A DNA stretch of 64,000 nt from Roseateles oligotrophus (GTDB lineage: Bacteria; Pseudomonadota; Gammaproteobacteria; Burkholderiales; Burkholderiaceae_C): NCBI RefSeq assembly GCF_014204525.1, contig NZ_JACHLP010000001.1, positions 1 through 64,000 of the forward strand, given 5' to 3'. Under the pieces are notes generated by a model. That model was not told the origin of the DNA and did not search any database. It saw nothing but the letters and a program-made list of their open reading frames with translations. Every line of letters begins with the position of its first letter. Position 1 is the first letter of the stretch. The translations under genes and the position numbers were made by a program. Of the stretch, positions 11,865-40,979 are shown in pieces.

Positions 11865-14800
11865 TCAATCGGTGGCCAGCTTGAGTTCCACCGCCGGTGT
11901 CCAGGCCTCGCCCTTGCCTGCGGCCTCGCTGTGGTGCAGCTTGGGGCTGGCCAGGAAGATGCGGCTGTTCGGCAGACCTTTGGCGATCAAGGCGTCGCGC
12001 ACGGCCACGCCGCGGGCCAGGCTGAGGGCGCGCACGCCGGCCTCGTCCACCGGGTAGCTGGCCAGCAGCAGACCGCGCATCTCGGCCGCCGGCAAATCCT
12101 TGGCCAAGCCCAGCATATTGCGCGGCTTGCCCGGCAGCTTGGTGGCTTCGTACACCGCCTTCAGCAAGCGCGTGCGATCGGCCTCGCTGAGGCTGAGATC
12201 GGCCGCGGCCGCCTCGGCATCGGCGCTGGCCGTCTGGCGGCGCTGCAACTCCAAGCGGCGCTGCGCCAGCATGGCGCGCTTCAGCTGCGCTTGTTGGATG
12301 GCATCGCGCTCCTGCTCCAGATCGGCCGAACCGGTGATGGTCAGATTCAGGCCTGGCCTGTCCAGCAAGGCCTTGGCCACCTTGTCCAGGGCCTGGGGCG
12401 AGCTGGGCGTGGCGCTGCCGGGGGCAAAGGCGATGCGGCTGTGATCATCGCCACCGCCACCTCTCAACAGCGAAAACGGCGAGGTCAAGGCCTTGCCGAT
12501 CAGGTTCAGCACCAGCTTCCAGACCACGGCCCCGACGCTGAACTGCGGGTCGTTGATGGAGCCGGACACCGGCAGATCCACATCGATCACGCCGTTGCGG
12601 TCCTTCATCAAGGCCACGGCCAGCAACACGGGCAGCTTGGTCGCGTCGGGGCTGGCCACGGCCTCGCCAAAGGTCAGCTGATTCAGGATCAGCTGGTTGC
12701 TGGCCTGCAAGGCGCCGCCGGCCTCGATCTTGTACTGCAGCTTGGTGGACAGCTTGCCGCGTTCGATCGCATAACCCGCGTATTTGGCGGCATAGGGCGA
12801 GAGCGGCGCCAGCTCGATATCGCTGGCACTGGCACGCACATCCAGCTGCAAGGGCGAGCCCAGGGGGTTGAGCTGGCCATCGATCTCCAGCAGCCCCGTC
12901 CCGGCCACCTTGCCGCGCAGTTGCAGGGGCGCCAAGCCAGCTTGGCCGCTCTTCACCGCACCCAAGCTGCCCTCCAGCTCGGACAGCTGGGCGCTGTAAT
13001 TGGGGCGCACAAAGTGGTCGGTGAAATCCACCCTGCCCTTGCTGATGCGGGTCTGCTCGACGCTGATCTGCAGGGGCAGCGCTGCGGCGGCCGAAGCAGC
13101 GGCCGCCGGAGCCACCGCCTTGGCCTCTTTCTCGGCTCCCAGGCTGCTGAGGTTGAAGCGGCCCTGCTCATCGATCAGCAAGCGGGCGAAGAAGTCGCTC
13201 AAACGCAGTTCGGCAATCGCCAGCTGCGGCGTTTGACTGGGCTTCATCTCGAAGCGCAGGCCGTCGAGATTCAGGGCCTGCCAGTTCAGCAAGTCCTCGC
13301 CCAGCACCCGCTGGCCGTCCTGCAGCCGGGTTTGCTGCAAGCGCAGATCGGTCAGCAGCACATCGGCCTGGGCCTCGCCCAGCCAGTCGCTGCCCTGCTG
13401 TTTGCCCTTGAACTCGCCGCGCAAGCCCAGCTCGGCCCGCTGCAGAGAAAGGCCCAGGGCCGGATCCAGATAGGGGGCCAGCAGATGCAGGGGCAGGCGC
13501 TCGGCCCGCAGCTTGCCGCTGGCGCTCAGCGGCTGCAGCACCAGCCGGCCCCGCCAGTCAAAACTACCGGCCGGCACGGCAGCGGCGGCGATTTGGGTCT
13601 GCACGCGACGGCCGGCACGGCGCCCTTCCTGCTGCGCCGCCTGCACCCCGCCCAGGCGGAAACTCAGTTGCGCGGCGCTGCCGGCCGATGCGCCCGGCCA
13701 GGCCAAGGCGTCCAGGCGCAGGCGCAGCTGATCGGCCTTCAACGAAGCCACCCCGGCCGGCGCGGCCGCGTCCTGCAGGCGCAGCTGGCCGCCGTCGACC
13801 TTGAGCGCTTGCAGGTTCAGCTGCCAGTCGGCGGACGCGGGCTTTGCCTTGGGCCGGGCCTCGCCTTCGGGGGCCGACAGCTTCAGGACCGGCCGCCCTG
13901 AGGCCAGGGTGGCAGGGGACTTTTTCGCGCCCCCTGCGGCCGAGGCCGCTGGCAGCAGCGCCGCGAAATTCCAGTCGGCACCCTTGGCCCGGGCCAGCAG
14001 CAGATCGGGTTTGGCCAGGCTCAGCTCACCGGCCTTGATCGCCTGGCTGCCCAGGTCCAACTCGGCCTTGTCCAGCTTCAACTCGGCCAGCTTGAACAGC
14101 GCGTCGGCGGATTTGGCGCCTTGGGCAGAGACCGTCAGCTGCCCGACTTGCAGGTCTTGCAGGCCCAGGCTCAGGCGCGCCAGCGGGTCCTCGTCCAGGG
14201 GCTGGGCCAGCTTCAGACTGGCGCGGCCCGCGGCACTGGCCATGAATCTGAGCGGGGTCTGCGCCGCCCAATAGGGCTCAAACCACTGCAAGGGCAGTTG
14301 CTCCCAGGCCAGACCGGCCGTCAACTCGGCCGGGTCGATCTGGCCCTCGCCCTTGAGCTGGGCAGCGGCTTGCGCCTGCCCCGCCCCCCTGCCTGTTACG
14401 GGCCGCAGCTGCGCAGAAAAAGCCAGGCGGCTGGCCGTCTTCATCGGCCACTGGACGGCGCCTAACTCCAATTCCATTTGGCTCAGGTTCAAGGCCATAT
14501 GCCCGGGCACGCCGGCATCGCGCCAGGCCAGCGTCGAGTCGCTCAGCTTGAACCGATCCAGGCTGAACCGCCAGGGCGAGGCCGCGCCCGCGCTCTTGCT
14601 TGGGGCAGGCTTGGCGGGCGCAGCGCCGGTCGGCAACCAGATATGGCCGGCCGCGTCACGGTCCAGCTGCAGGTCCAGACCCTGCCAGTGCAATTCACCC
14701 AGGGCGATGTGCTGCTGCAAGGGCTGCAGCTGTTTCAGGCCCAGGCTCAAGGACTGCCAGGCCAACCAGGGACTTTGGTCGGGTTTTTGCAAGGCGAAGT

Positions 14801-33864: not shown

Positions 33865-34803
33865 ATGACTGGCAGCCTGAGCCCCGCCCTGCCCTTCGAC
33901 CCCCTGCGCCCGCCGGACAATCCCGGCATGGGCCGCGGCTTCGCCATTGCCGCCATCGCCCACGCCGCCCTGCTGGCCGCGCTGAGCGCCGGCGTGCACT
34001 GGCGCACGGAGACCCCACCCGCCTTCGAGGCCGAGCTGTGGTCGGCCCTGCCGCAGGCCGCCGCGCCCAAGGAGCAGTTGCCGCCCGAGCCTGAACCCGA
34101 ACCCACGCCGCCCCCCAAGCCCGTGCAGGCGCCCCCGCCGCCCCCGCCCGCCGAAGACCTGCAGGCCGAGCGCGAGGCGGAGATCGCCATCGCCAAGGCC
34201 AAGGAGAAAAAGAAGCAGGAGCTGCTGGAAGCCAAGCGCGAGGCCGAACGCGAGGCCCAGCGCAAAAAGGACGAGCTGGCCAAAAAGGAAAAGGAACGCG
34301 AGAAGGCCGAGAAGAAGGCGGCGGAAGAAAAAGAAAAGCAGAAACAGGAAAAGCTGGACAAGCTCGAGAAGCAAAAGCAGGACAAGCTGGCCAAGGACGC
34401 CGCCGCCAAAAAAGACGCCGCCCGCGAGGCCAAGGCCGAGGCGCAGCGCCAGGAAAACCTGCGCCGCATCCAGGGCATGGCCGGCGCCAGCGGCGCCCCC
34501 AACGCCAGCGGCTCGGCCCTGCAGTCCTCCGGCCCCTCGGCCAATTACGCCGGCCGCATCAAGGCCCGCGTGCGCCCCAACATCATCTACCCCGACACCG
34601 GCAGCGCCAACCCGGTGGCCGAGGTCGAGGTGCGCACCGCGCCGGACGGCAATATCATCGCCCGCAAAATCCTCAAGGCCAGCGGCGACAACGAATGGGA
34701 TAACGCCGTGCTGCGTGCCATCGACAAGACGGCCGTGCTGCCGCGTGATACCGACGGCCGCGTGCCCTCGGTGCTCATCATCAGCTTCAAACCGCGCGAG
34801 TAG
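33865..34803 (+). CDS. tolA: TolA cell-envelope linking protein
   Basis: A 312-residue protein that spans the periplasm. A membrane anchor lies at about residues 24-44 (GFAIAAIAHAALLAALSAG). A Pro-rich segment (PPPPPPAEDL) is followed by a long Lys/Glu/Ala coiled-coil (about 95-205), and a C-terminal TolA/TonB-like domain runs from NYAGRIKARVRPNIIYPD to SVLIISFKP. Length is within the beta-proteobacterial range. Its usual downstream partners tolB, pal and cpoB do not follow; a palindromic repeat and a convergent operon come next. Confidence 0.95.
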   Translation: MTGSLSPALPFDPLRPPDNPGMGRGFAIAAIAHAALLAALSAGVHWRTETPPAFEAELWSALPQAAAPKEQLPPEPEPEPTPPPKPVQAPPPPPPAEDLQAEREAEIAIAKAKEKKKQELLEAKREAEREAQRKKDELAKKEKEREKAEKKAAEEKEKQKQEKLDKLEKQKQDKLAKDAAAKKDAAREAKAEAQRQENLRRIQGMAGASGAPNASGSALQSSGPSANYAGRIKARVRPNIIYPDTGSANPVAEVEVRTAPDGNIIARKILKASGDNEWDNAVLRAIDKTAVLPRDTDGRVPSVLIISFKPRE

Positions 34804-34808
34804 GCCTG

Positions 34809-34951
34809 AGAGGGTGAGAACTTTTTACTGCGCGGCCGCCATGCGTCGTTGGGCGGTGCTCGGAATCCTCACGTACAGGAAGTACGTTCCGGCATCCGCA
34901 GCTCCGTCCGCCTAGCCTGGCAGCCGCTCGCTACAAAAGTTCACACCCTCT
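34809..34951. repeat. 143-bp imperfect palindromic repeat element after tolA
   Basis: The two ends are near mirror copies: AGAGGGTGAGAACTTTT at 34809 onward and, on the other strand from 34951, AGAGGGTGTGAACTTTT, followed in each arm by a GCGCGGCCGCCATGC / GCGAGCGGCTGCCAGGC match. The centre is a perfect ACGTAC-AGGAA-GTACGT palindrome at 34871-34887, exactly midway. The element thus folds into one long hairpin, like REP/MITE-type intergenic repeats. It carries no gene of its own and could end transcription of both tolA and the convergent operon. A genome-wide copy number would tell whether it is mobile. Confidence 0.75.
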
Positions 34952-35448
34952 GACCTGACGCGAAAGATCAGCGCATCCACCGAGAAGCGCCCCGCCCCGA
35001 ACAAGGCCACCGCCAGCAGCAAAACGCCCCAGAGCTGATGGCCAGCCAAGGCGGCCGGGGCGATTTCGCTGAGACTCGCCACCGCCACCAGATTGACCAC
35101 GCTGAGGCCCAGGGCGGCAAAACGCCCGCCCAGACCCAGCACCAGCAAGACGGGCAGGGCCAGCTCCCCGGCCGTGCCCAGATACGCCGCCAGCTCGGGC
35201 GGCAAGAACGGCACCTGGTATTCATCCTCGAACAAGGCCAGGGTGCTGGACCAGTCGCGCAGCTTGCTCAGGCCCGAGAGGAAAAAAACCTGGGCCAGAT
35301 AAAACCTGGCCAGCAGGAGCGCCAGTGATTGGGCCTGGGCCAAGACCCAGTTCAGCCAGACCGGGGCCGCGTGTGAACGCAGCGAAGAGCGGCCTGGATC
35401 GCAGAGCAGACGCAGCAGCACGGTGAAAGCATTGAGAGCGATATTCAT
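34912..35448 (-). CDS. DoxX-family membrane protein (GigT/BufD-like)
   Basis: A 178-residue inner-membrane protein with four hydrophobic segments and the DoxX signature LLLARFYLAQVFFLSGLSKLRDW (as RFYLAQVFFLSGLSKL). TAGELALPVLLVLGLGGRFAALGL and FGAGRFSVDAL are further DoxX blocks. It is the last gene of the bufferin-type operon and overlaps the DUF2063 gene by 4 bases. DoxX proteins of such loci (GigT in Cupriavidus) are proposed to act in redox or thiol chemistry at the membrane. The last 12 codons and the stop lie inside the palindromic repeat, so the original C-terminus has been replaced. Confidence 0.85.
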   Translation of the reverse strand: MNIALNAFTVLLRLLCDPGRSSLRSHAAPVWLNWVLAQAQSLALLLARFYLAQVFFLSGLSKLRDWSSTLALFEDEYQVPFLPPELAAYLGTAGELALPVLLVLGLGGRFAALGLSVVNLVAVASLSEIAPAALAGHQLWGVLLLAVALFGAGRFSVDALIFRVRSEGVNFCSERLPG

Positions 35449-36254
35449 GGCGATTCCTGTGCATTGATTTCAAGCGCAGCCCAAAGGCATTCCTCGCGCA
35501 GCCAGCGCTGCAAGACGACGCCAAAGTCGTAGTCGGGCTGCATGAGCAAGGCGCTTTGCAAGGCGGTGTCCAGATCCAAGCCGGCCAGCAAGGCCTGCAA
35601 CAAAACAGCTTCAGCGGGGTCCGGAAAACGCGCCTGCACCGTCCAGGCTTGGCGCCAGACCAGCAGGGGCTGCGGCACCCAGCTCAGCATCCGGGCCGCG
35701 GCGATGAGGTCCTCATCGGCCGCCGCCCCGCCCCGCCACAGCAGCAAGGCGGCGGGCGAAATCTGCTGCAGGCTCAGGCCGGGCCGCATGCGCAGGCCCA
35801 GGCGCGCCGGCTCAAGCTGCGCCAGCAGATGCAGGGATGGGCCGTCCAAGACCCCATCGGCACAGCCTTCGGCCCGGTGGGCGGCCCAGCACAGCCGGGC
35901 CAGCTGGCAGGGCAAGGCCTCCATCTGCGGCTGCCGCGCCAGAAAGTCCGCCAAGTCCGCGCCCCACTCGGCCAAATCGCCGCGCTGCGGCGGGCTGGCC
36001 CGCCAGAAGGCCCAGGCCATGGCCGCGAACGAGGCCTCGCCCAGCCATGCATGCAGCGGGCCGTAGACGGCGGCCAGGGCGCGCGCCGCCAGGGCCTGGG
36101 CGTTGCTGCGGTAGGCCTGGAGCCCACGCTGCAAGCCAGCCGACCCCAGGCCGCACAGGCCAGGCACCGCGCCCCTGCCGCTAGCCAGCGCGGCCAGCAA
36201 GGCCGCCTGCCGAGCCTGCAGCTCGGCCCGTCCATCCAGCTCAAGCGGGCTCAT
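35445..36254 (-). CDS. DUF2063 protein (BufC/GigB/HvfC-like), partner of the MNIO enzyme
   Basis: A 269-residue protein with the DUF2063 N-domain: [40 protein letters not shown] (read as GLQAYRSN and [11 protein letters not shown]), and [15 protein letters not shown]. In characterised systems the DUF2063 protein binds the precursor peptide and forms a complex with the DUF692 oxidase, so it acts as the recognition component. It overlaps the DUF692 gene by 14 bases and doxX by 4, so production is stoichiometric. The C-terminal half is more variable, ending in a WLREECLW segment. Confidence 0.88.
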
Positions 36255-37125
36255 AACAAACCTCCTCCATGCATTGCGCGGCCAGCCGCGCCTCGTCCAG
36301 CAGCAAGGCCAGCGGCGGCAGATGGCTGTCCCACTCGATCAAGCTCGGCAGCGGGCCGAAGCGCGTCAGCGCGTGGGCATAGAGCTGCCAGACCTCGGCG
36401 CAGACGCGGCTGCCATGGTCATCGATCACCAGGCCCTCCAGCTCGGCATGGCCGGCCAGATGGATCTCGGCCACGCTGTCGCGGCGCAGGCCGTCCATCC
36501 AGCGGCAGGCCTGGGCTTGAGCCTCGGCCTTGTCGGCGCCACGGTTGCGCGCATTGACGAAGAGATTGTTGACATCGAGCAGCAGGCCGCAGCCGCTGCG
36601 CTGGGCCAGGGCATTGAAGAACTCGGGCTCGCTCATCTCCTCGTCCCCGGCACTCTCGGCCCAGCCCAGATAGGCGCTGAGGTTTTCCACCAGCAAGGGC
36701 CGGCGCAGCCGCTCCTGCACCTGCTGCACATGGGTCACCATCAGGTCCAGGCTGGCGCGGCTGAAGGCGATGGGCAGCAGATCGCTGGCATGCTGAAAGC
36801 CGGCCCCACCGGGCTGGGGCACGCGGGCGAAGCTGGCGTGGTCGGAGACCCGGCAGGGCTGGATGCGCTCCACCAGCCGCGCCAGCTTGTCCAGATGCCA
36901 GGCGTCCAGGCCGCAGGCCGAACCCAGGGACAGGCCCACGCCATGCAGGCTGATCTCGTAATGCTCGCGCGCCTGGCTCAGCAGGGCCAGACCGGCGCCG
37001 CCCTCGGCAAAGAAGTTCTCGGAATGCACTTCCAGAAAACCCAGGGCCGGCCGCTGCTGCATCAGTTGCCGGTAATGCGGCTGGCGCCAGCCTATGCCCA
37101 CCGGGCTTGCTGGAGTGCGCAGCAT
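36241..37125 (-). CDS. DUF692 / MNIO multinuclear non-heme iron oxidase (BufB/GigA/HvfB-like)
   Basis: A 294-residue TIM-barrel enzyme of the DUF692 family. The iron ligands are in family motifs: [74 protein letters not shown] and IEWDSHLP. Family members (MbnB, TglH, BufB) oxidatively convert cysteine residues in a bound peptide, for example to thiooxazole or related groups. The precursor gene lies 1 base upstream and the partner DUF2063 gene overlaps downstream, so its substrate is almost certainly the DUF2282 peptide. Length is usual (~280-300). Confidence 0.92.
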
Positions 37126-37126
37126 G

Positions 37127-37426
37127 TCAGGACTTCTTGGGCTTCGCAGCCGCCAGCGCGGCCTTGGCCTCGGCGGCGCTCAAGCCCTGCTGGCTCTTGC
37201 AGCTGCCCTTGGCCACGTACTGCCATTCATCCGGCGTCATCGCGGCCGTGGCCTGGCCGGCACAGGAGTGGCTGCCGCTCAGATTGGCGCAGTCGTTCTG
37301 GCCGGCCTTGCTGATGCCATAACATTTTTCCTTGGCGGCCTTGGCCTCGGCCGCCGTGGCGGGCGTCAACAAGCCCAGGGCCAGCACGGAGGCCAGGGCG
37401 GAAGAAACAATAGCGCTCGTTTTCAT
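37127..37426 (-). CDS. bufA: DUF2282 bufferin-type precursor peptide (copper/gold-binding RiPP)
   Basis: A 99-residue secreted peptide. A Sec signal ([19 protein letters not shown]) precedes a core with four cysteines: C35 ([11 protein letters not shown]), C46 (QNDCANLSG), C55 (HSCAGQ) and C76 (KGSCKS), then a Lys/Ala-rich tail. This is the DUF2282/bufferin-1 pattern. In recently described systems the MNIO enzyme modifies the inner cysteines and the exported peptide binds copper; the Cupriavidus gig homologue is induced by gold. GGAG (37434-37437) is its ribosome site. It leads the four-gene leftward operon. Confidence 0.9.
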
Positions 37427-37528
37427 CGGGTAACTCCATCAAAAGCGGCACAAGCCGTGCCTGCTCTTGCGTCGGGGCAGGCGCCGCAGTCCTTACACTG
37501 CGCGCAGAGAAATCTCGAAAGCGAGCGC
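37427..37528. promoter_or_regulatory. Divergent promoter region between bufA and the ECF sigma gene
   Basis: A 102-base region that must serve both operons. For the leftward bufA transcript, TGTAAGGA (complement of 37490-37497) and CCGACG (complement of 37470-37475), 14 bases apart, resemble an ECF-type -35/-10 pair, with the bufA ribosome site further on. In the rightward direction TACACT at 37495-37500 could be a -10 for the sigma gene. The ECF promoter is a guess from spacing and the location beside a sigma factor gene. Confidence 0.4.
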
Positions 37529-38137
37529 ATGACCGAGACCGCCCAGGGGACGACCGGCCCCGCCATGGCCAAGCAGTTGGAACAGTTGCGGCCGCAGCTG
37601 CTCAAGTACGCCACCCTGCAGCTGCGCAACCCCGCCTGGGCGGAGGACGCGGTGTCCGAAACCCTGCTGGCCGCGCTGGAGCGACCGCAGAACTTTGCCG
37701 GCCAGTCCCAGCTGAAGACCTGGTTGATCGGCATCCTCAAGCACAAGCTGGTCGACCAGATCCGCCGCAATAGCAAGGAAATGTCGGCCACGGCCGAAGA
37801 CGGTCAGAGCGTGGACGAGGAGCTCTTCCACCCCAACGGCCATTGGCGCGAGATGCCGCAGGACTGGGGCGACCCCGAGCACTGCCTGCGCCAGCTGGAC
37901 TTCATGCGGGTGCTGGAGGCCTGCGTCGAACATCTGCCCGGCCAGCAGGGGCGCTTGTTCATGATGCGCGAGTGGCTGGAGCTGGACACCGAAGAAATCT
38001 GTAAGGCCCTGGGCATCAGCGCGACCAATCTCTGGGTCATGCTGCATCGGGCCCGGCTGCGCCTGCGCGAATGCCTGCAGCTCAACTGGTTCGGGGCACA
38101 GGCCTCGCACACCCAAGAACAAGGAGGAGTGCTGTGA
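37529..38137 (+). CDS. ECF-like RNA polymerase sigma factor
   Basis: A 202-residue sigma factor. Region 2 is QLRPQLLKYATLQLRNPAWAEDAVSETLL (as LRNPAWAEDAVSETLLAALE) with LKTWLIGILKHKLVDQIRR binding the -10 region; region 4 is ACVEHLPGQQGRLFMMREWLELDTEEIC with NLWVMLHRARLRLRE. It resembles the sigma group often linked to a short zinc-finger anti-sigma and to bufferin/gig operons (as in the Neisseria ecf locus, from memory). It is divergent from bufA by 102 bases and translationally coupled to the anti-sigma gene. ATG 37529 is the first start that gives the fold without unrelated N-terminal sequence. Confidence 0.88.
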   Translation: MTETAQGTTGPAMAKQLEQLRPQLLKYATLQLRNPAWAEDAVSETLLAALERPQNFAGQSQLKTWLIGILKHKLVDQIRRNSKEMSATAEDGQSVDEELFHPNGHWREMPQDWGDPEHCLRQLDFMRVLEACVEHLPGQQGRLFMMREWLELDTEEICKALGISATNLWVMLHRARLRLRECLQLNWFGAQASHTQEQGGVL

Positions 38138-38325
38138 AGCTCAGGCCCAATTGCCGCGAAGTGACCGAGATGGTCTTGCTGGCCCAGGAAAAGCCGCTGT
38201 CGCTGAGCGAGCGCCTGGCCGTGCGCCTGCATCTGCTGATCTGCAAGGCCTGCCCGCGTTTTCTCAAGCAGGTCGAACTGATGCGCCGGGCCAGCGAACG
38301 CTGGCGCCACTACAGTGAAGAGTGA
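38134..38325 (+). CDS. Small zinc-finger anti-sigma factor
   Basis: A 63-residue protein starting at GTG 38134, four bases inside the sigma gene, with an excellent AAGGAGGAG ribosome site at 38121-38129. RLHLLICKACPRFLKQ contains the H-x3-C-x2-C cluster of zf-HC2/ZAS anti-sigma factors, where zinc or a thiol switch controls sigma binding. No membrane segment is present, so it is a soluble anti-sigma, which fits cytoplasmic sensing of metal or oxidant. Its partner is surely the upstream sigma factor. Confidence 0.82.
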   Translation: MKLRPNCREVTEMVLLAQEKPLSLSERLAVRLHLLICKACPRFLKQVELMRRASERWRHYSEE

Positions 38326-38447
38326 AGCTGCGGGCTCTGTGCCCGCCAATTCGGCGCTTTGAACCGGTCTCCGCGCATTAGCATCGGTGGGGCGTAGAGC
38401 CAGGCCGTCGCTGAAGCGTCCGGCTCCAACCCTGTTTGGAGGAATGA

Positions 38448-40979
38448 ATGCCCGATTTGTCTGCCCCGCTGAGCTGGCCCCACGGCGAAGCCCCTGCCGA
38501 TGCCAACACAGCCCCGGGCAAGCTCAACTTCGTCTGGCCCATGCCGCCCTTCGCAGCCTACCCGCGCGCCAAGGCACAGAACGCACCCGAACCCTGCGAG
38601 GTGCTGGGCCTGAACGGCAGCCGCAACCCCGGCCACCTGATCCTGATGGCCGCGCACGAGCGCATCGCCCAGGTGCTGGTGCCGCCGGCCCGCAATGCCA
38701 TGCCGCTGAAGTTCGGGCAGTTCCGCGCGCTCAAGCTGCTGCGCCCCATCGTCGCGGCACCACGCGAGAGCAATCAGGCCGACGATGTGCTCAAGCTGGA
38801 CTCGCGCCCGCGCAGTGAATTCAAGCTCTTCTTTGTCGGCGGCGGCGAGCTCAGGGGCCGCACCATCGGCCATTGCCAGGACGAGCTGGGGCTTTTCCTC
38901 TTCCCGCCCATCAGCGATGCGGATGACTCGGTCTACCGCGTCTTCATCCCCCGCGAGGTGCTGGACCATTTCGAGATCGGCGAGCGCATCGGCGATGTGC
39001 TGGTGAAGGAAAACCTGGCCACCGCCGCCCAGATCAACGAGGCCGCCAGCGAGCAGCAAAGCCTGCGCTCGCGCCGCGTCGGCGACATCCTGGTGGCCGA
39101 GAGCATCGTCAGCGCCGAGCAGCTGATGCTGGCCATCGAGCAGCAGGCCCGCATGCCCATGGTGCGCATCGGCGAGGCCTTGCTGGCCCTGGAGCTGATC
39201 ACCGAGGCCCAGTTGGAGCATGCGCTGGAGCTGCAGCGCGGCGACCGCTCCGTGCCCCTGGGCGAGCTGCTGGTGCGCCGCGGCATCGTCAGCCGCCAGG
39301 CCCTGCAATCGGCGCTGGCGCGCAAGATGGGCTACCCCATCGTCGATGTGGCCAGCTTTGCCATCGAGCCCGATGCGGTCAAGAAGATCCCCTATGCCGT
39401 GGCCAAGCGCCTGGACGTGCTGCCCCTGCTGCTGCGCGACGGCCGCCTGATCGTGGCCATGGAGGACCCGACCCGGCGCGAGGCCCTGGACGAGATCGAA
39501 TTCATCGCCCAGCTCAAGGTCACGCCCACGCTGACCAAGGTCGGCACCTTGCTGAGCGCCATCCCGGCCACTTACGAGCGCTATGGCGGCGACGCCATCG
39601 CACGCAGCGAATTGCTCCCCGGCGCCCATCCCTCGCAGGATTTTTCCCTCGACAAGGCCGATCAGCTGATCGAAACCCTGGAGCGCGAGGTGCAGGACCG
39701 CGGCGGCCGCGACGACGAAGTGCCGCTGGAACAAAGCGACAACTCCCTGGTACGCCTGATCAACAGCATGATCATCGAGGCCAGCAGCCAGGGCGTGTCC
39801 GACATCCATATCGAGACCTATCCGGGCAAGGAAAAGCTCAAGATCCGCTTCCGCAAGGACGGCGTGCTCAAGCCCTATCTGGAGCTGCCCAACACCTACC
39901 GTAACGCCATGATCGCGCGCATCAAGATCATGTGCGAACTCGATATCTCCGAGCGCCGCAAGCCGCAGGACGGCAAGATCAACTTCGCCCGCTTCTCGCC
40001 CCAGCACAAGCTGGAGCTGCGGGTCGCCACCATCCCGACCAATAACGGCCTGGAAGACGTGGTGATGCGCTTGCTGGCCTCCTCCAAACCCATCCCGCTG
40101 GAAAAGCTGGGCCTGACCGCGCGCAATCTGAGCGAGCTGAAAAAGGCCGTCAGCCGCCCCTACGGCATGGTGCTCTGCGTGGGCCCCACCGGCTCGGGCA
40201 AGACCACCACCCTGCACTCGGCGATGAGCTATATCAACACGCCGGACCGCAAGATCTGGACCGCCGAGGACCCGGTGGAAATCACCCAGGCCGGCCTGCG
40301 CCAGGTACAGGTCAACCCCAAGATCGACTGGACCTTTGCCAAGGCCTTGCGCGCCTTTTTGCGCGCCGACCCGGACGTGATCATGGTGGGTGAAATCCGC
40401 GACGAGGAGACCGGCGAGATCGCCGTCGAAGCCTCGCTGACCGGCCACCTGGTGATGTCCACCCTGCACACCAATAGCGCGGCCGAGACCATCACCCGGC
40501 TCTTGGACATGGGCATGGACCCCTTCAACTTCGCCGACTCCCTGCTGGCCGTGCTGGCCCAGCGCCTGGTGCGACGGCTCTGCCCCAATTGCCGCAGCGC
40601 CAAGCCGATTGCCGAGGCCGATCTGCAGGAGTGGCTGGACGACTATCTGCACATCTACCCCGAGCACCAGGGCCCGGCGCGCCAAAGCGTGCTGGACGAC
40701 TGGGTCAAGAGCTACGGCCACAAGGGCCAGCTCCTGCACTACCACAGCCCCGGCTGCGAGGCCTGCGACCACAGCGGCTACAAGGGCCGGGCCGGCCTGC
40801 ACGAGCTGCTGGCCGTCTCCAAGGTCTTGCGCCGCCAGATCCAGACCGGCGCCCGCGCCGAGGAGCTGCTGCAGACCGCCCTGACCGAGGGCATGCAAAC
40901 CCTGCGTCAAGACGGCATATTGAAAGTCCTGCAGGGCGTGACCACCATGGCCGAAGTCCGCGCCACCAGCAATGCATAA
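38448..40979 (+). CDS. GspE/PilB-type secretion ATPase with four MshEN-type motifs
   Basis: An 843-residue cytoplasmic hexameric ATPase for pilus or secretion machinery. The first ~130 residues are a divergent domain. Four tandem 24-residue MshEN-type motifs follow (RIGDVLVKEN from about 180, RVGDILVAES from 210, RIGEALLALE from 240, PLGELLVRRG from 270), each with the conserved G and L pattern. The catalytic part has Walker A GPTGSGKT at about 579-586, the Asp box TAEDPVEI, Walker B PDVIMVGEIRDEET, HLVMSTLHTNSA, and a zinc knuckle formed by CPNC and CEAC. One MshEN unit (two motifs) binds cyclic di-GMP in MshE, so this protein could bind two. GGAGG precedes ATG 38448. It is the first gene of the msh locus, upstream of mshE. 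Confidence 0.88.
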   Translation: MPDLSAPLSWPHGEAPADANTAPGKLNFVWPMPPFAAYPRAKAQNAPEPCEVLGLNGSRNPGHLILMAAHERIAQVLVPPARNAMPLKFGQFRALKLLRPIVAAPRESNQADDVLKLDSRPRSEFKLFFVGGGELRGRTIGHCQDELGLFLFPPISDADDSVYRVFIPREVLDHFEIGERIGDVLVKENLATAAQINEAASEQQSLRSRRVGDILVAESIVSAEQLMLAIEQQARMPMVRIGEALLALELITEAQLEHALELQRGDRSVPLGELLVRRGIVSRQALQSALARKMGYPIVDVASFAIEPDAVKKIPYAVAKRLDVLPLLLRDGRLIVAMEDPTRREALDEIEFIAQLKVTPTLTKVGTLLSAIPATYERYGGDAIARSELLPGAHPSQDFSLDKADQLIETLEREVQDRGGRDDEVPLEQSDNSLVRLINSMIIEASSQGVSDIHIETYPGKEKLKIRFRKDGVLKPYLELPNTYRNAMIARIKIMCELDISERRKPQDGKINFARFSPQHKLELRVATIPTNNGLEDVVMRLLASSKPIPLEKLGLTARNLSELKKAVSRPYGMVLCVGPTGSGKTTTLHSAMSYINTPDRKIWTAEDPVEITQAGLRQVQVNPKIDWTFAKALRAFLRADPDVIMVGEIRDEETGEIAVEASLTGHLVMSTLHTNSAAETITRLLDMGMDPFNFADSLLAVLAQRLVRRLCPNCRSAKPIAEADLQEWLDDYLHIYPEHQGPARQSVLDDWVKSYGHKGQLLHYHSPGCEACDHSGYKGRAGLHELLAVSKVLRRQIQTGARAEELLQTALTEGMQTLRQDGILKVLQGVTTMAEVRATSNA

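Follow-up and report, generated by a model that had tools for sequence, protein, structure and literature searches.

The DNA considered here (the window) is a 64,000-nucleotide (nt) stretch of the Roseateles oligotrophus genome (assembly GCF_014204525.1, contig NZ_JACHLP010000001.1, positions 1 to 64,000), from the order Burkholderiales within the class Gammaproteobacteria. At positions 34912–38325 it carries a complete type-1 bufferin operon beside genes for an extracytoplasmic function (ECF) sigma factor and a zinc-type anti-sigma factor. The operon, bufA-bufB-bufC-doxX, lies on the minus strand, and the sigma/anti-sigma pair is divergent, on the plus strand. This gene list and its coordinates had been given in an original prediction made from the sequence alone, and proved exact when the open reading frames were re-read and searched against Pfam and NCBIfam profiles. 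It is quite probable that the operon is under the control of a thiol/zinc redox switch, in which the sigma factor also drives its own anti-sigma factor as feedback. Published systems are described below from partial texts of the cited papers.

The first gene of the operon, bufA (37127–37426), encodes a type-1 bufferin precursor of the DUF2282 family (99 aa; Pfam PF10048, 1.2e-21), with a signal peptide recognised by eye and cysteines at positions 35, 46, 55 and 76. All four cysteines are invariant in 134/134 aligned entries, an alignment that, like that of the 115 anti-sigma entries below, counts the window's own protein three times. A PDB sequence search with BufA gave no matches. After a gap of 1 nt follows bufB (36241–37125), encoding a multinuclear non-haem iron oxidase (MNIO, DUF692; 294 aa; Pfam PF05114, MbnB_TglH_ChrH, 3.1e-90), which scores just below the cut-off of NF050167 (305.4 bits against 310) and has a relative in the PDB (3bww, 1.8e-28). 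It overlaps by 14 nt with bufC (35445–36254), whose 269-aa product is a DUF2063 partner protein (Pfam DUF2063, 1.4e-14) with no NCBIfam match at 0.01. The last gene, doxX (34912–35448), overlaps bufC by 4 nt and encodes an HvfX-like membrane protein (178 aa; Pfam DoxX 3.1e-18; NCBIfam HvfX 63.1 bits, below the cut-off of 80).

The bufferin-type identity of the locus is thus borne out by its four-cysteine precursor, MNIO and DUF2063 partner in bufABC order, and DoxX. The oxidase had been credited with all metal-ligand motifs; the conserved His, Asp, Glu and Asn residues are indeed present and are candidate iron ligands. Such operons had also been called recently described, which is true of the peptide chemistry but not of the sigma–operon link, known from Neisseria since 2010. 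Type-1 operons form a copper-linked family (PMC12452194), and the exported BufA peptide would, by homology, carry modified cysteines and bind copper. Separately, an odd stretch lies at 34830–34950, between tolA and doxX, and extends into the final doxX codons. Its core, CGTACAGGAAGTACG, occurs once in the window and once in a 942-kb set of loci that includes its own stretch, and a search for inverted repeats of at least 12 nt found none, so that no repeated element is shown there.

The sigma gene (37529–38137) encodes 202 aa with Pfam Sigma70_r2 and r4_2 domains. The protein belongs to its family by both curated cut-offs (NF009173, 297.8 bits against 255; TIGR02943, 240.8 against 162.2), and its nearest named relative, from Paucibacter sp. 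KBW04, is 89% identical, which places the genome near the Roseateles/Paucibacter group. The anti-sigma gene (38134–38325) starts with GTG, overlaps the sigma gene by 4 nt, and encodes 63 aa (zf-HC2 7.5e-6; NF052368 67.8 bits, cut-off 50). Small and encoded downstream of the sigma gene, the protein fits the pattern of the zinc-binding anti-sigma (ZAS) family, Cys-X25-His-X3-Cys-X2-Cys, and its Cys7, His33, Cys37 and Cys40 are invariant in 115/115 aligned entries. A structure model predicts three helices, the last one charged, while the PDB sequence search returned weak, unrelated rows only. By this pattern, the protein would bind zinc and release the sigma factor upon oxidation. The 5.34-Mb genome (30 contigs) has a single DUF2282 match, a single NF052368 match and five TIGR02943 matches at E 0.001, one of which is over the cut-off. 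Relatives of the sigma factor also occur on plasmids: at E 1e-30 there are 65 plasmid records, all of less than 60% identity, from Burkholderia (49), Klebsiella, Enterobacter, Acinetobacter, Neisseria and others.

Control of the operon by the sigma factor, as proposed in the original prediction, is supported by the region upstream of bufA. On the minus strand, positions 37467–37496 read GTAAGGACT-N13-CGACGCAA, and the predicted sigma-dependent promoter (GTAAGGACT ... CGAC, 37471–37496) has 17 nt between GTAAG and CGAC. In Neisseria meningitidis, sigmaE promoters have a -35 element GTMAGBWTT and a -10 element CGTCTAAH, 12–13 nt apart (PMC2893595). Conservation was examined in a near clade of 81 sigma loci, that is, the window and the best 80 of 288 relatives. 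In 58 of these, bufA lies within the fetched stretch, always on the strand opposite the sigma gene; for the remaining 23, some of them on short contigs, the sequence retrieved contains no bufA. GTAAG-N16/17-CGAC points toward bufA in 57 of the 58 linked loci, the exception being locus L218, a figure that holds for the near clade only. When spacers of 8 to 29 nt were compared, the motif occurred with 16 nt in 14 loci, 17 nt in 43, 12 nt in two, and with all other spacers in none. These counts exclude matches inside sigma genes, which were first taken for chance, and strict-motif counts vary with the definition of the motif. Together with published genetics in Neisseria and Haemophilus, this conservation makes predicted sigma control of bufA well supported in the clade. 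Autoregulation of the sigma gene from the divergent region was considered and not adopted, as in none of the 58 linked loci does the intergenic region hold a strict motif pointing toward the sigma gene. No sigma-70 consensus promoter was found in 34700–38600.

The same motif precedes other genes of the genome, and the pair is therefore not exclusively the operon's own, as had been supposed. GTAAGGN{15,16}CGAC has nine genomic matches, two of which are the site before bufA and one inside the sigma gene (see below). Another lies 75 nt upstream of a BufA2 precursor gene (C3:370652–370677; NF050166 91.6 bits, cut-off 60), behind which lie genes for a separate MNIO (NF050167 381.1 bits, cut-off 310) and for a DUF2063 partner (L338:2044–4077). 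A survey of MNIO clusters reports sigma genes in Buf1 clusters, not in Buf2 clusters (PMC12452194). Control in trans, as predicted from this one genome, would explain the sigma-free Buf2 clusters. The BufA2 precursor also matches 12 plasmid records; on the only one examined, a Cupriavidus sp. KK10 plasmid, no matching promoter precedes the gene.

A further match lies just upstream of a periplasmic thioredoxin-CcdA/DsbD-like pair (C3:393191–394361). Among relatives of this thioredoxin, the motif is found upstream in 5 of 13 loci from 12 genomes (the own genome and 4/12 others; one of the five, L320, lies at the end of a contig and was assigned manually), and is absent before the other eight. 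In the fetched loci of the order, it also precedes genes for MsrB, glutaredoxin, a radical-SAM/DUF3641 protein and thioredoxin-CcdA. The presence of the motif before MsrB and thiol genes fits the MsrAB target of the Neisseria and Haemophilus systems, and suggests a regulon for periplasmic thiol and methionine repair. The genome's single MsrB gene is not among its motif matches. A Sel1-repeat protein that follows the motif at C2:668920 is a possible target, while the open reading frame after C3:398037, ferritin-like by eye, matches nothing in Pfam or NCBIfam at 0.001. Matches L333, L335 and L337 were set aside, as they look like chance.

Two observations on relatives touch the same genes. In L079, several motif-bearing genes, including back-to-back pairs, lie near the bufferin operon (2575–2654, 7899 and 13007–13064); they encode a glutaredoxin, a radical-SAM/DUF3641 protein, a protein that is methyltransferase-like by eye, and thioredoxin-CcdA. 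At L087:2754 (minus strand) and L089:9406 (plus strand), the motif is found again with MsrB-like genes close to bufferin operons; a SelR domain was identified for the L087 gene.

In the proposed mechanism, the sigma and anti-sigma genes would be co-transcribed, and their joint promoter would be of a type other than the sigma factor's own. In resting cells, the anti-sigma factor, with zinc on Cys7, His33, Cys37 and Cys40, would hold the sigma factor inactive. Thiol oxidation by reactive chlorine or disulfide stress, or possibly a thiophilic metal, would then release it. The free sigma factor would fire GTAAG-N16/17-CG[AT]C promoters before bufABC-doxX, the BufA2 operon and the periplasmic thioredoxin-CcdA pair. 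The exported, cysteine-modified peptide would bind periplasmic copper, while the partner genes would repair periplasmic thiols. Finally, the active sigma factor would boost its anti-sigma factor from the intragenic promoter, and the response would be shut off.

As to the signal, the anti-sigma factor may instead be a direct metal sensor, whose Cys7, Cys37 and Cys40 would lose their zinc to Cu(I) or Au and so free the sigma factor. Thiophilic metals are able to attack zinc-thiolate sites, which speaks for this possibility. So does the membership of the operon in a copper-linked family (PMC12452194), as does the induction of the gig operon of Cupriavidus metallidurans by copper and gold (PMC10304878). 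However, the Cupriavidus anti-sigma factor is predicted to be membrane-bound, and in the available text RpoQ is not demonstrated to act on gig (PMC10304878). Of the characterised ZAS pairs, that of Haemophilus influenzae responds to HOCl and H2O2 (PMC7907618), and that of N. meningitidis to no oxidant tried (PMC2893595). Moreover, genes for the repair of thiols and of methionine sulfoxide are among those predicted to be co-regulated, here and in relatives. The original suggestion of release by copper or gold is not borne out, and direct metal sensing appears unlikely; by analogy with the characterised pairs, thiol oxidation would be the likelier trigger.

The feedback step depends on the site inside the sigma gene. 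A predicted sigma-dependent promoter, GTAAGGCCCTGGGCATCAGCGCGAC, lies at 38001–38025 on the plus strand, spans the codons C-K-A-L-G-I-S-A-T of region 4 from Cys158, and ends 108 nt ahead of the anti-sigma gene. It was examined in 115 distinct sigma genes, 74 from the order (the window included) and 41 further ones from the class, representing 27 and 12 more families as counted by hand. The embedded site is present in 61 of the 115 genes, from about 39 families. At the exact spacing, CG[AT]C follows GT[AC]AG in 45/46 genes of the order and 16/20 of the class, and GC[AC]AG in 1/3 and 4/5; with other -35 variants it is found in 5/25 and 4/16. Across 63 loci (those of named organisms and the window), the distance from the -10 element to the codon of the first zinc cysteine of the anti-sigma factor has a median of 115 nt (range 94–198). 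A side observation concerns four sigma/anti-sigma pairs of the Paucibacter and Roseateles group without bufA in the fetched stretch (L159, L166, L174 and L184): in their sigma factors the region-4 cysteine is followed by Gln or Arg, and their genes lack the intragenic site.

Within this site, selection acts at the level of the DNA, as codon usage indicates. The cysteine codon is TGT before AAG or CAG in 46/49 genes of the order and 20/25 of the class, compared with 6/20 and 6/14 otherwise. In a background of 901 genes, TGT stands before AAG in 3/44 cases and before CAG in 6/68. Among 114 sigma genes, TGT is used at the region-4 cysteine in 87/111, while other cysteine columns have 1/15, 20/113 and 28/113. 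Of the 58 GT[AC]AG genes, 57 have G as the last base of the codon preceding Thr, whatever the residue, against a background of 27–50%. In a scan of synonymous sites, positions of the intragenic site rank second, third and fifth of 184 columns, and second and third of 182 in another set. Alignment columns 161, 162, 168 and 67–76 are numbered three above the residues of the window's sigma factor (Cys158 and so on). Motif counts in the fetched loci (40 at the right spacer, 0–2 at others, a mean of 3.4 for scrambled motifs) are partly circular, as the motif was derived from the same loci. A matrix built from bufA promoters only was therefore added; with it, the site outscores 90% of its synonymous recodings in 62 of the 77 Cys-Lys or Cys-Gln genes, and of 155 start columns that of the site comes first.

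DNA-level selection does not require that a promoter fires. The site could be a binding or pausing site, at which the holoenzyme stalls or blocks elongation and so represses the sigma/anti-sigma operon, and a direct repressor role has been reported for sigmaE of Streptomyces coelicolor (PMC10771440). A working promoter is favoured over this by the position just before the anti-sigma gene, the correct spacing, the retention of both -35 and -10 elements, and the precedent of PrshA in Corynebacterium glutamicum, which makes a pausing site improbable.

Equally improbable is that the match has no role and merely follows from the conserved protein sequence (C-K-x-L-x-I-x-x-T-N) and shared ancestry. 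The peptide is conserved, related genes share codons, the distribution of carriers on the tree is clustered (23 changes, compared with 38.6 on average after shuffling), and another codon block of the gene, which does not fit the motif, is equally constrained. Against this, TGT is used despite a strong TGC bias, and Lys/Gln swaps, of which the tree holds 10, preserve GT[AC]AG. Serine codons of the TCN type yield CGTC. Third-base G is kept as the residue varies between Ala, Pro, Ser and Thr, the first base of this codon having changed 25 times on the tree among the 61 carriers, although this G is built into the CG[AT]C definition of a carrier.

Given the DNA-level constraint, the position and the C. 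glutamicum precedent, the site is read as a promoter for the anti-sigma gene, a reading that is somewhat favoured and held less firmly than the constraint itself. Among the open-licence papers found, judged by titles and abstract openings, none reports an intragenic anti-sigma promoter for this sigma family, nor do those found on bufferin regulation. The evidence leans only slightly towards the generalisation that, across proteobacterial TIGR02943 sigma factors, region-4 codons double as a self-read promoter for the zinc anti-sigma factor, with one sigma factor serving Buf1 in cis and Buf2 in trans, as well as periplasmic thiol repair.

Several observations weigh against the redox switch proposed here. 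A broader sample of the order comprised 150 genomes, of which 55 have DUF2282, 73 have NF052368 at E 0.001 (65 over the cut-off) and 72 have TIGR02943 at E 1e-40 (69 over the cut-off). Only 14/40 sigma-positive genomes have the strict motif before bufA, compared with 1/15 sigma-negative ones (Fisher p 0.045), and a genome of the same family (G049) is among those without it. The 75 bufA genes tested gave a mean of 0.24 genomes (maximum 3) in shuffled sequence, and scrambled or mis-spaced motifs gave 0 or 1 genome. Of the 18 sigma-positive genomes in which the fetched stretch with bufA also contains the anti-sigma gene, 8 carry the motif, as counted by hand, and confidence in the redox switch is slightly reduced for this reason. 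The link between sigma factor and bufA is therefore tight within the near clade and patchy outside it. Genome-wide, the motif is not enriched, with nine matches against 24 for a reversed control (4 against 15 in another count), and about half of the nine look like chance.

The remaining contrary points concern the intragenic site and the signal. Fisher values for the TGT bias (1.2e-7 in the order, 0.033 in the class) are uncorrected for the kinship of the genes. G before the Thr codon is also found in 11/11 genes without strict GT[AC]AG. Ranks 1, 4, 6 and 8 of the synonymous-site scan fall in another codon block, pointing to at least one further cause of codon conservation. This second block (window 37718–37747, alignment columns 67–76, TWLIGILKHK) has third-base C at column 73 in 64/112 genes, the position that ranks first of 184, and does not fit the promoter motif. 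Lastly, meningococcal sigmaE gave no response to H2O2, diamide or singlet oxygen (PMC2893595). That the sigma factor does not control bufA at all, and is merely the neighbour of an operon under another regulator, might be argued from the 26/40 sigma-positive genomes without the strict motif, but is very improbable, given the correctly spaced promoter in the linked clade loci and the Neisseria and Haemophilus genetics.

With these results the regulation of bufferins, so far a guess, gains a promoter and a list of targets that can be tested. They point the signal toward thiol oxidation and away from copper and gold, and link to a sigma factor, predicted to act in trans, the Buf2 family, whose clusters are reported without sigma genes (PMC12452194). 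The same bases seem to encode both the DNA-binding helix of the sigma factor and a promoter that the same sigma factor would read. If true, this would constitute a built-in off-switch within the sigma gene of proteobacterial TIGR02943 factors.

The gene content of the locus is of a known kind, as the same genes, with the same class of sigma/anti-sigma pair, have been published for N. meningitidis and H. influenzae. The meningococcal locus NMB2140-2145, with sigmaE and MseR (PMC2893595, PMC3240639), shares the bufferin-type genes, a ZAS protein of identical Cys-X25-His-X3-Cys-X2-Cys spacing and matching promoter elements, and sigmaE drives the same operon genes, with cysteines of MseR being essential (PMC2893595). 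It is one co-directional, autoregulated operon, whereas here there are two divergent units, and the sigma gene is not preceded by a strict motif of the sigma type. The intragenic site before the anti-sigma gene is a further difference, as it is absent from L135 and L141, two genes of Neisseria-like layout that presumably resemble neisserial sigmaE. The RpoE2/HrsE pair of H. influenzae (PMC7907618) likewise has a ZAS anti-sigma factor, of 67 aa, and very limited sigma self-control. After HOCl, RpoE2 drives a DoxX-DUF692-DUF2063 operon, which differs in lying at another locus; msrAB is nearby.

Other relatives share single features of the system. In Caulobacter crescentus, one ECF sigma factor, SigF, also governs two bufferin operons, both listed there as DUF2282, but its anti-sigma factor NrsF is a membrane protein with six predicted helices, and the signals are chromium and cadmium (PMC3511200). 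The gigPABT-rpoQ-rsqA region of C. metallidurans has the same four kinds of operon gene and a divergent sigma/anti-sigma pair (PMC10304878). RsqA is predicted to be membrane-bound, in contrast to the 63-aa ZAS-family protein here, and that report demonstrates the metal induction of the operon but not its control by RpoQ. For the feedback, the closest precedent is SigH/RshA of C. glutamicum, where a SigH-driven promoter for rshA inside sigH (PrshA) is proven experimentally, and where the sigma gene itself relies on other promoters (PMC3489674). That system is actinobacterial and has another promoter sequence, and the available text describes no bufferin link. Set beside these systems, the locus is a regulatory variant, distinguished by its divergent layout, the lack of a strict self-promoter, the embedded candidate promoter for the anti-sigma gene, and the predicted inclusion of a second bufferin operon in the regulon.

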